From Clostridia bacterium (GTDB taxonomy: Bacteria; UBA6262; WVXT01; JAUXBS01), in the NCBI GenBank assembly GCA_030618495.1, contig JAUXDE010000056.1:1-10908 (forward strand): a stretch of DNA of 10,908 nt. Direction: 5' to 3'. The notes under the pieces are model-generated. The model did no database searches and was not told the DNA's origin. It worked only from the letters and a program-made list of their open reading frames with translations. A program made the translations under genes and the position numbers. Positions 5,193 through 9,547 of the stretch are shown here, piece by piece. Numbering within the stretch: position 1 is the first letter of the stretch; every line of letters begins with the position of its first letter.

Positions 5193-7868
5193 ATGGTTGA
5201 GATTAGTATTAACGGCCGGAAAGTCACAGCGACTGAAGGAACCAGCGTGCTTAAGGCGGCGCTTGATGCCGGCATATACATACCAAACCTGTGTTACGAT
5301 GAAAGGCTGGAGCCGTACGGCGGTTGCCGGTTGTGTATAGTCAGGATTGAAGGTATGAGAGGGTTGCCCACTGCCTGTACCACTTTGGTGAAAGCCGGGA
5401 TGGCTGTAACAACAGCCGACAGGGAAATAAATAATATAAGGAAGCTTATAGCGGAACTGCTTATTTCCGACCATCCGCAGGACTGTCTGACATGTTCTTC
5501 AAACCAGAAATGCGAACTGCAGAAGGTTGCGGCGTACCTGGGTATAGGAGAGAGCAGGTTAAGAAGGAATGTCAGAAAAATTGAAATCGATGACAGCAAC
5601 CCGTTCTTCGGCAGGGATATGTCCAAATGTATATTATGCGGCAGGTGCGTGCGCGCTTGCGAAGAGATAAGAGGGATAGGCGTGATTGATTTTGCTTTCA
5701 GGGGTTATGATACAAGAATAAGTACTCTTGGAGACGGTCCCATAGCGGATTCCGACTGCAAGTCATGCGGTGAGTGCGTTGATGCCTGTCCTACCGGGGC
5801 GCTTTATACAAAGTCCGAGGTTATGATTCCGGAAAAAGAAATAAGAACCATATGCCCGTACTGCGGTTGCGGCTGCGGGTTGGTTCTCGGGGTGCGGGAT
5901 AATACCATAATAAAGGTAAGGGGTGATTCCGGTGATCCCGTCAGTAAAGGCAGTCTCTGCGTGAAAGGGCGTTTCGGCCTTGATTTTGTAGGCTCTGATA
6001 AACGCCTCACAGCTCCGCTTATTAAAAAGAAAGATAAGTTTGTAGAGGTAAGCTGGGACGAAGCTTTGGATTACGTCGCCGGCAGGTTCAAGGATGTTAT
6101 TCACAAGCACGGTCCGAACGCCATGGCCGGACTCTCATCGGCAAAGTGCACAAACGAGGAGAATTACCTGATGCAGAAGTTCATGCGCTCCGTCATAGGG
6201 ACCAATAACGTTGACCACTGCGCCAGGTTATGCCACGCCTCCACGGTTGCGGGGCTTGCCCGCGCTTTCGGTAGCGGCGCGATGACCAATTCGACCAACG
6301 AACTGGAAAACGCCGATTGCATACTCGTAACGGGCTCCAACACCACCGAGGCCCATCCGATAATCGCCCTTAAAATTAAAAATGCCGTAAAAAGAAATAA
6401 CGCGAAACTTATAGTGGCTGACCCCAGGAAAATAGAACTCACTGAAATTGCCGCTCTTCACGTGAGCCAGAAACCGGGAACGGATGTCGCGCTGTTCAAT
6501 GCAATGATGAACGTTATCATATCGGAGAATTTATGGGATGAGAAGAAGGTGCTGTCAAAGACCGAAAATTTTTCAGAGTTTAAAAAGGTCGTAAAGAAAT
6601 ACACTCCCGAAGTCTCCGAAAAAATAACCGGCGTTAAGGCTGAGGATATCAAGAATGCCGCGCGGATGTACGCCGGGGCCCAAAGGGCTTCAATAGTCTA
6701 CAGTATGGGCATTACGCAGCATACGACGGGAACGGACAATGTTCTTGCCCTTGCCAACCTTGCGATGATGACTGATAACGTAGGATACGAGAGCGCGGGG
6801 GTCAATCCCCTTCGTGGGCAGAATAACGTGCAGGGCGCCTGTGACGTGGCGGCCCTTCCGAACGTGTTTCCCGGTTACCAGCCGCTTGCTGACAAGGAGG
6901 TCAGGGAGAAGTTCAGGAGGGAGTGGGGAAAGATTCCTCCCGAAGAACCGGGGTTGACGGTGGTTGAAATAATGCACGAAGCGGAAAAGGGTAACATAAA
7001 AGCATTGTACATAATGGGTGAGAACCCCATGATTTCAGACCCGAACACCAACAGGACGGGAAAGGCGCTTGAAAACCTGGATTTCCTGGTAGTACAGGAT
7101 ATATTCCTTACAGAGACTGCCGAGTATGCGGATGTGGTTCTTCCCGGGGTGAGTTTTGCGGAAAAGGAAGGCACTTTCACGAGTACGGAAAGACGCGTTC
7201 AACTGTTAAGAAAGGTTGTTGACCCGCCCGGCAAGGCAAGGCAGGACTGGGAGATAATATCGGATATTGCCGGGAGAATAGATTATGACAGGAAGTACGA
7301 GACCGTTTCGCGGATAATGGACGAGATAAACTCGCTTATGCCCATTTACGGCGGCATAACGCATGAAAGGATAAAGAAAGTGGGACTCCAGTGGCCCTGT
7401 CCCGATGACAAGCATCCCGGAACCGCATACCTGCACAAGGATGGTTTTAAGCGGGGAAAGGGCAGGTTTCATCCTACAACTTATAAGGACCCTGATGAAC
7501 TTACAGATAAGAACTATCCCTACATACTTACAACCGGACGGCTCCTTCATTACTTCCATACGGGCACTCTTTCAAGAAAGACTCCCGGTTTTGAAGAACT
7601 TTCACCGCCAGCGCTGGTTGAGATAAATCCGGCTGACGCCGCTGCAAATAAAATCAAGGAAGCTCAAAAGGTTGAGCTTATATCGCGCAGAGGAAGGATT
7701 ACGGCAACGGCAAAGGTAACCGAAAAATCCCCCGCGGGCGTAATATTTATGCCGTTTCATTTTGCGGAGGCGGTAGCGAACGTTCTTACCAACGACGCTC
7801 TTGACCCGGTAGCGAAGATACCTGAACTTAAGGTCTGCGCAATAAAAATAAGGAAGGTAAAAAAATGA
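5193..7868 (+). CDS. fdhA: Formate dehydrogenase catalytic subunit, NuoG-type Fe-S module fused to Mo/W domain
   Basis: This 891-residue enzyme (from ATG 5193) interconverts formate and CO2. The N-terminal NuoG-like part carries a [2Fe-2S] site (C34, C45, C48, C62), a His-ligated [4Fe-4S] site (H94, C98, C101, C107) and a two-cluster ferredoxin domain (C146, C149, C152, C156; C189, C192, C195, C199). The molybdopterin part begins with a [4Fe-4S] site (C221, C224, C228, C256) followed by conserved K258. The metal ligand is C347 (TGC at 6231-6233) next to H348, where E. coli FdhF has selenocysteine. R541 in NPLRGQNNVQGACD matches the formate-binding arginine. GSNTTEAHP, TGRLLHYFHTGTLSRKTPG and FHFAEAVANVLTNDALDP are typical of formate dehydrogenase rather than NuoG or nitrate reductase. 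The residue before MVEISINGRKV is not needed by the family. However, TTG at 5178 is in frame, has GAGG nine bases upstream, and would overlap the previous gene by 8 bases, so five more residues are possible. No TAT signal is present, so it is cytoplasmic. Confidence 0.95.
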   Translation: MVEISINGRKVTATEGTSVLKAALDAGIYIPNLCYDERLEPYGGCRLCIVRIEGMRGLPTACTTLVKAGMAVTTADREINNIRKLIAELLISDHPQDCLTCSSNQKCELQKVAAYLGIGESRLRRNVRKIEIDDSNPFFGRDMSKCILCGRCVRACEEIRGIGVIDFAFRGYDTRISTLGDGPIADSDCKSCGECVDACPTGALYTKSEVMIPEKEIRTICPYCGCGCGLVLGVRDNTIIKVRGDSGDPVSKGSLCVKGRFGLDFVGSDKRLTAPLIKKKDKFVEVSWDEALDYVAGRFKDVIHKHGPNAMAGLSSAKCTNEENYLMQKFMRSVIGTNNVDHCARLCHASTVAGLARAFGSGAMTNSTNELENADCILVTGSNTTEAHPIIALKIKNAVKRNNAKLIVADPRKIELTEIAALHVSQKPGTDVALFNAMMNVIISENLWDEKKVLSKTENFSEFKKVVKKYTPEVSEKITGVKAEDIKNAARMYAGAQRASIVYSMGITQHTTGTDNVLALANLAMMTDNVGYESAGVNPLRGQNNVQGACDVAALPNVFPGYQPLADKEVREKFRREWGKIPPEEPGLTVVEIMHEAEKGNIKALYIMGENPMISDPNTNRTGKALENLDFLVVQDIFLTETAEYADVVLPGVSFAEKEGTFTSTERRVQLLRKVVDPPGKARQDWEIISDIAGRIDYDRKYETVSRIMDEINSLMPIYGGITHERIKKVGLQWPCPDDKHPGTAYLHKDGFKRGKGRFHPTTYKDPDELTDKNYPYILTTGRLLHYFHTGTLSRKTPGFEELSPPALVEINPADAAANKIKEAQKVELISRRGRITATAKVTEKSPAGVIFMPFHFAEAVANVLTNDALDPVAKIPELKVCAIKIRKVKK
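7851..7857 (+). promoter_or_regulatory. Ribosome binding site of the Omp85-like gene, inside fdhA
   Basis: AGGAAGG lies within the last codons of fdhA, seven bases before the ATG at 7865. It supports that start and the ATGA stop/start overlap with fdhA, so the outer-membrane gene can be translated from the formate dehydrogenase message. Confidence 0.7.
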
Positions 7869-9547
7869 AAATCACAGGAACACTCATAACCGTTGTTGCT
7901 GTTTATTGTTTTACCGCAGGCGTTTCTTTTTCTGAAGAAACTGCCCTGGTGAAAGAAACCACATCCACGGTAAAGTATGCCGTGGAGGATAGTACGACAA
8001 CAGCCCAAGGCGCTGTGGCTGAATCAACGCCCACCATAAAGTACGTCTTCGTTATTGACATTGATTTTGACGCGGAGATAACCATTGAAGTTTATGATTC
8101 AGATAACAATCCCGTGATGAGTACGGGAAGCTTCAAAATAATGACCGGAACAGTCGCCGTCAGGATTGACTGGGACGGTAAAGATAACAATAAAGCGCTC
8201 CTGAGGGACGCGACGTACTATTACGATATGTACGCTTTCCTGCCGGTTGAAAAAGCGGTAAGGATGGTTTCGGGAAAGTTTGAAATAGTAACTGATACCA
8301 TGGTAGCTGAACCACCGGAGATAAACCAATCCTTTAAGAAAGATTTCATAGTTATCGACAAATCCGCGTTTAAGATAAACAAAATCGAAATAAAGGGCAA
8401 CACCAGGACAAATACGAAGGATATCCTTAATAAATTCAATATTAAGCAGAGGAGTTTTTACACCGCCGGGCAGATTGAAGACAGGATGAAATCGATGGAA
8501 GGGTCCCCGTTCGCGGAAGTGGCTGAGCATAGTATCGTCTCAGACAAAACCATAATGGATGCGGTTTTAAGGGTAAAAATCAGCGAGAAGACGTTAAACT
8601 CTGTCAGGTTAAGGGGCGGCTACAGTTCAAATGCTTTGGGCGGAGAGGGACAGCTTATAGGCGCGCTGGATTTTTCATCGAAAAACCTGTATGACGGCGT
8701 GCACAGGGAAATCGACGTATTTACCGAAGGGCCGTATACAGGCAGGGCGGTTTATGACATCAATTATTTAGAATCAATAGGAGATATGTTCTATAGCATA
8801 AACTTCCACAATGAAAGCGAGTTGTTCTCCCAGGGTGCATATGACGCCATGGGGATTGATACGGACCCGGGGGCTTGCAGTTATGAAAAAAGGAGTATAG
8901 GAATATCCTTCGTAGAGCTGTTTGAGGGGAAAGGGAAGGGTGTCCTGGGATACAGGTGGGAGAACATCGAGCTTTACAGTTCTCCGGGGCGTTCAAAGAA
9001 TAATTTTCTGCTGGGCCTCATTTTTGACAAGAAAGAGGATTGCTGGTTGGTTATGAGCCGGTTATTCAACGAGATTTTCATGGAAGTCGGGCTTGACTCC
9101 GCTGACGATAGAAGACACGTTACAAAGCTTGAAACTTCGGTAAGCCATGAGTTCTCCATGGGCGAAGGCATTGTCCTGGAATTCATGGAGGGAGACGGGA
9201 TAATGTTTACCAGGAGGCCGGATTTATGTTATTATGACCTGTTCAGGCTCGGGGGCATGAAGAACCTGAGGGGGTTCACCGAGGATGCTTTCACGTGCCT
9301 GTTCTACATCTGGGGGTCTTTGGAACTTACTGTGCCCTTGTGGAGGGATTTATATTTCTGTTTGTTCGGCAGCGCGGGCGTATGGTCTGATTCTTATGTT
9401 AACCTGTTAGAAGACGGCGGGGTAGGTTACGGGGCCGGTTTTAAACTTGACAACGACAGGTGGTCATTTGATATCAGCCTTGCAACGAATAACCAGCAGA
9501 GCCCCAATGACTTCCGGCTGTACCTTGGGTCAGAGCTTGAATTCTGA
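7865..9547 (+). CDS. Omp85-superfamily outer-membrane protein with FlgD-type Ig domain and one POTRA
   Basis: This 560-residue protein starts with a signal peptide (hydrophobic core about 4-20, likely cleavage after VSFS at 23). A Thr/Ser-rich linker with a degenerate repeat (STVKYAVEDS, STPTIKYVFV) follows. Residues about 60-142 look like a FlgD-type Ig-like domain, with the signature DWDGKDNNKALLRDATYYYDM at 102-122. A single POTRA-like module spans about 168-240 (KINKIEIKGNTRTNTKDILNKF start). The rest is a beta-barrel of the BamA/TamA/D15 type. It carries the loop-6 motif LRGF (R469, G470, F471) after FRLGGMKN and ends in ELEF with the C-terminal Phe expected of BAM substrates. BamA normally has five POTRAs and TamA three, so this is neither. 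One or two POTRAs occur in TpsB-type and other small Omp85 proteins. Its ATG overlaps the fdhA stop (ATGA). Function, such as protein or lipid transport or assembly, cannot be named. Confidence 0.85.
   Translation: MKITGTLITVVAVYCFTAGVSFSEETALVKETTSTVKYAVEDSTTTAQGAVAESTPTIKYVFVIDIDFDAEITIEVYDSDNNPVMSTGSFKIMTGTVAVRIDWDGKDNNKALLRDATYYYDMYAFLPVEKAVRMVSGKFEIVTDTMVAEPPEINQSFKKDFIVIDKSAFKINKIEIKGNTRTNTKDILNKFNIKQRSFYTAGQIEDRMKSMEGSPFAEVAEHSIVSDKTIMDAVLRVKISEKTLNSVRLRGGYSSNALGGEGQLIGALDFSSKNLYDGVHREIDVFTEGPYTGRAVYDINYLESIGDMFYSINFHNESELFSQGAYDAMGIDTDPGACSYEKRSIGISFVELFEGKGKGVLGYRWENIELYSSPGRSKNNFLLGLIFDKKEDCWLVMSRLFNEIFMEVGLDSADDRRHVTKLETSVSHEFSMGEGIVLEFMEGDGIMFTRRPDLCYYDLFRLGGMKNLRGFTEDAFTCLFYIWGSLELTVPLWRDLYFCLFGSAGVWSDSYVNLLEDGGVGYGAGFKLDNDRWSFDISLATNNQQSPNDFRLYLGSELEF

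Follow-up and report, generated by a model that had tools for sequence, protein, structure and literature searches.

Ten Omp85/TpsB subfamilies have been described, several of which carry unrelated N-terminal domains; members of the BamA-like subfamily possess one to three POTRA domains and all of them occur alongside a true BamA (PMC4104836, Heinz and Lithgow 2014). An extra N-terminal domain is also characteristic of the patatin-Omp85 protein PlpD, where it is followed by a POTRA and a 16-strand barrel and was found to be periplasmic and to lie against the POTRA (PMC11116518). The lid lock of Omp85 proteins is a salt bridge between the Arg of the loop-6 motif (V/I)RG(Y/F) and the Asp of the strand-13 motif (F/G)xDxG (PMC4490367).

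The stretch of DNA analysed here (10,908 nt; hereafter the window) contains an intact open reading frame for a 560-aa protein (Table 1). The sequence-only reading had assigned to it a signal peptide, an Ig-like domain, one POTRA and a barrel with the loop-6 RGF motif, in this order; the order is correct and recurs in an orthologue, which has its own SPI-like signal peptide site (sequence inspection). In the window protein a second linker lies between the Ig-like domain and the POTRA. The arrangement does differ, as had been proposed, from those of BamA, TamA and classical TpsB. However, to regard the protein as a poorly described type was an overstatement, given the precedents of BamA-like proteins with one to three POTRAs (PMC4104836) and of PlpD (PMC11116518). 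Single-POTRA barrels without an Ig-like domain are also encoded in unrelated genomes (L084, 437 aa; L137, 413 aa, the domains of the latter read by inspection). The protein thus fits a new combination within a known Omp85 pattern, that of few POTRAs and an unrelated N-terminal domain. No description of the Ig-POTRA-Omp85 architecture was found in a search of largely open-access literature.

Table 1. Features of the Ig-POTRA-Omp85 gene and its product (window coordinates)
Feature	Position	Strand	Basis
CDS, Ig-POTRA-Omp85 protein, 560 aa	7865..9547	+	ORF and orthologue
4-base overlap ATGA, start codon with formate dehydrogenase stop	7865..7868	+	sequence
Sec signal peptide, residues about 1-23, without lipobox	7865..7933	+	sequence inspection
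Ser/Thr-rich linker, residues 24-57, with KYAVEDST motif	7934..8035	+	sequence; further exported proteins of the genus carry similar motifs
Putative FlgD-type Ig-like domain, residues about 58-142	8036..8290	+	Pfam (sub-threshold) and profile-profile comparison
Single POTRA, residues about 169-243; counterpart in the BamA-like paralogue: its barrel-proximal POTRA	8369..8593	+	Pfam, profile comparison
Omp85 beta-barrel, residues 244-560, terminal aromatic F560	8594..9544	+	profile matches
Loop-6 motif LRGF, residues 468-471	9266..9277	+	sequence; motif definition PMC4490367
Strand-13 motif FGSAG, residues 501-505; Ser503 in place of the Asp of canonical (F/G)xDxG	9365..9379	+	sequence; PMC4490367

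The POTRA, which had been placed at residues 168-240, matched Pfam family PF07244 above the cut-off (25.9 versus 21.3 bits, residues 170-225), and residues 161-246 matched POTRA profiles. The Omp85 barrel profile PF01103 (cut-off 24) scored below threshold in the window protein (13.9 bits) and above it in the orthologue (28.2 bits). A phmmer search of the protein against PDB sequences gave no match. The claim of a FlgD-type Ig-like domain at residues 60-142 was borne out by profile-profile comparison but not by Pfam alone. The Pfam family FlgD_ig (PF13860, cut-off 27) reached only 14.1 bits here (residues 71-124) and 19.9 bits in the orthologue. Alignment of residues 61-124 with hhalign to a profile of 19 FlgD_ig segments, all from the same phylum, gave a probability of 96.9% (score 58.4, E 1.4e-10), with the WDG...YYY stretch in register; none of 100 column shuffles scored above 22.5, and the reversed profile scored 10.2. 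The possibility that residues 58-142 constitute another POTRA was ruled out, the hhalign score against 20 POTRAs being at shuffle level (8.8). In the reciprocal control, residues 161-246 scored 41.0 against POTRAs (shuffles ≤16.1) and had no match to Ig. AlphaFold2 models built from the two-sequence alignment carried no confidence (mean pLDDT 27.5 for the full protein and 32.1 for Ig plus POTRA). The predicted Ig-like fold of residues 58-142 is therefore assigned from sequence profiles.

A search for other proteins with this domain order, as had been suggested, yielded one further case, the orthologue in a congeneric genome (G001; L050, JAUXBS010000004.1), which shares the formate dehydrogenase context. 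Its frame is intact, the available sequence ending at a contig edge near residue 523, and it is 46% identical to the window protein (Ig 53%, POTRA 56%, barrel 41%). Since the formate dehydrogenases of the two congeners are 84% identical, the Omp85 gene evolves much faster than the enzyme gene. In three overlapping sets of 386, 387 and 385 genomes, a profile of the Ig-POTRA pair detected the combination of the two domains in the congeners alone; the profile consisted of two rows and its first pass was limited to eight scored candidates per genome, which means that a diverged relative could escape. The remaining matches contained one of the domains only or, where checked, were ordinary BamA proteins. 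A scan of genome contigs retrieved only the same congeneric orthologue, and the POTRA and Omp85 matches in the sister genus were all of types other than Ig-POTRA-barrel. The architecture would appear to be known so far from one genus only, and its restriction to a single genus within a sparsely sampled lineage narrows its general significance. The congener record is titled 'Clostridia bacterium'. This label is probably wrong, because the lineage possesses BamA and LptD-like, LpxC-like, LpxD-like and Skp-like genes, that is, it is diderm.

The upstream cluster in the window encodes a thioredoxin-like 2Fe-2S protein, a NuoF-like subunit and the catalytic subunit of formate dehydrogenase, which scored 877 bits against TIGR01591 (Fdh-alpha). 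The overlap with the latter gene is likely to reflect translational coupling. The downstream neighbour is an FAD oxidoreductase gene, the product of which is nearest to L-2-hydroxyglutarate oxidase, albeit below the cut-off of that model. The orthologue is likewise located behind formate dehydrogenase genes. In the congener alone, a gene for an additional exported or membrane protein of 235 aa (L050:7223-7930) lies between the formate dehydrogenase and Omp85 genes; this protein had no Pfam match, and no homologue was found in the window genome or the sister genus. In the two sister-genus genomes examined, the genes behind formate dehydrogenase are iron-sulfur, MobA-, FdhD- and Rex-like (identified by inspection), with no Omp85 gene among them, which indicates that the linkage is a genus-level trait. 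The formate dehydrogenase operon offers no clear hint as to a substrate of the Omp85 protein.

The genome retains a canonical BamA, split over two contigs (C157 and C152) and accompanied by TamB-like, Skp-like, LpxD-like and LpxC-like genes (named by inspection); the Ig-POTRA-barrel protein is therefore an extra Omp85. It matched the BamA equivalog model TIGR03303 weakly, over the POTRA and barrel (39.3 bits versus a cut-off of 297), and differs from BamA in having one POTRA instead of five. A closer relative is encoded in the same genome, namely a 644-aa BamA-like protein with three POTRAs (G000:C68, L072:6749-8683). Positions 174-521 of the two-sequence family profile aligned with residues 236-577 of this paralogue, i.e. 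with its third POTRA and barrel, over about 340 residues (57 bits; E 1e-18, as computed in a small sequence set). The paralogue has two more POTRAs where the window protein has the Ig-like domain. In a FastTree phylogeny of the POTRA and barrel, built from few sequences with long branches, the pair of orthologues grouped with the paralogue (support 0.87), together with two multi-POTRA proteins of other lineages, and stood apart from BamA and the unrelated single-POTRA barrels. The tree is suggestive of a sister relation to the paralogue. Taken together with the alignment, this suggests that the outer POTRAs were lost and the Ig module gained. A source for such a module would be at hand, because genomes of the phylum are rich in FlgD_ig modules, with 9 to 37 matches each, and the window genome itself has them in abundance. 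The sequence-only reading considered these domains to be more often C-terminal; in this phylum they were encountered internally as well as at the C-terminus.

Several other proteins of the lineage were noted. The gene directly upstream of the three-POTRA gene (L072:2244-6614) encodes an exported protein of 1456 aa that contains internal repeats and had no Pfam match; this protein is a possible substrate of the BamA-like paralogue. The motif Y-x-(V/I)-E-x-S-T, found in the linker that follows the signal peptide of the window protein (7973-7996), is present in three copies near the N-terminus of the 1456-aa protein, and the congener has it in an LptD-like protein (G001:C98, L074). The corresponding DNA pattern had ten matches in the window genome versus none in the reversed control, although only about half of the ten fall in credible genes and sister genomes were at background. 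A 943-aa protein (L067:139-2970, G000:C12) combines a Peptidase-MA-like domain, a WD40-like propeller and an Omp85 barrel and can be classed as a WD40-Omp85 protein to which a peptidase-like domain has been added; Omp85 frames of similar size were present in 5/5 sister genomes. Like the window protein, it has a beta-rich extra domain fused N-terminally to an Omp85 barrel, but its extra domains are peptidase-like and beta-propeller, and no POTRA was matched.

Set against the published BamA-like subfamily by description, the window protein is alike in its Omp85 barrel, in a POTRA of the PF07244 type whose number, one, falls within the range of one to three, and in being additional to a true BamA encoded elsewhere in the genome. 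It is unlike that subfamily in the FlgD-type Ig-like domain ahead of the POTRA and in the replacement of the lid-lock Asp by Ser. This Asp is conserved in insertases and translocases alike. Both orthologues retain the loop-6 Arg, within LRGF in the window protein (Leu in place of Val/Ile) and IRGL in the congener. The strand-13 motif is FGSAG in the former (Ser503, codon AGC) and the canonical FSDAG in the latter; the Asp is also kept in the BamAs and in the three-POTRA paralogue, whose motif is a canonical FxDxG. The lid-lock ion pair is thus predicted to be absent from the window protein. Because the orthologue keeps FSDAG, the change is read as a loss within the Omp85 family and not an exclusion from it. 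Canonical Omp85 activity may nevertheless be altered or lost, considering Ser503 here and RGL in the orthologue.

As the POTRA and barrel most resemble the BamA-like paralogue with three POTRAs, we favour, with a probability of about 0.55, an accessory BamA-like outer-membrane insertase or translocase in which a periplasmic Ig module serves for docking or gating. The protein would be exported by Sec and inserted into the outer membrane, with assistance of BAM, as a 16-strand barrel; the POTRA and Ig-like domain would remain periplasmic, by analogy with PlpD (PMC11116518). The Ig-like domain would take the place of the lost outer POTRAs in the docking or gating of a partner or substrate; recruitment of either had been suggested in the sequence-only reading. 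The barrel would then assist the insertion or translocation of a limited number of outer-membrane or surface proteins specific to the lineage, leaving the bulk of the work to the separate full-length BamA.

The plan of the protein (extra N-terminal domain, POTRA and Omp85 barrel, in the same order) is also that of the patatin-like Omp85 proteins PlpD and FplA ('type Vd'), which raises the possibility that the barrel serves chiefly as an anchor and neither inserts nor translocates proteins, and that the periplasmic Ig-like domain is the working part, binding cell wall, lipid or a partner. The extra domain is a patatin lipase in those proteins and an Ig in the window protein, with no sign of shared descent. 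The different erosion of the lid-lock motifs in the two orthologues and the faster divergence of the barrel than of the Ig and POTRA are in line with such an anchor. However, the window protein lacks a catalytic domain, the barrel of the orthologue still matches Omp85 and both proteins keep the loop-6 Arg. We therefore consider a mere anchor rather unlikely.

Ig domains are common at bacterial surfaces, and proteins of this phylum often contain FlgD_ig copies. Both points favour a passenger role, in which the Ig-like domain would be carried to the cell surface through the barrel, as in the original type Vd idea. This is improbable, since the POTRA, a periplasmic module, stands between the Ig-like domain and the barrel, and the analogous domain of PlpD was found to be periplasmic (PMC11116518). 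A TpsB transporter for a dedicated exoprotein is highly improbable: some Omp85 relatives do score weakly to ShlB, but the window protein matched neither ShlB (PF03865) nor the TpsB POTRA_2 model (PF08479) in a Pfam scan to E 1, its only POTRA is of the PF07244 type, and no large exoprotein gene is adjacent within the window.

A bolder reading, which we put forward as distinctly speculative, is a genus-specific Omp85 in which the Ig-like domain functionally replaces the POTRA array as substrate or partner receptor, possibly pairing with the many FlgD-Ig proteins of the secretome, and the barrel works without the lid-lock ion pair. With one of the two orthologues lacking the lid-lock Asp, the pair provides a useful natural variant. 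It also suggests that the outer POTRAs of an Omp85 protein may be exchangeable for an unrelated periplasmic beta-sandwich, which would make this family a natural test of the need for POTRAs.
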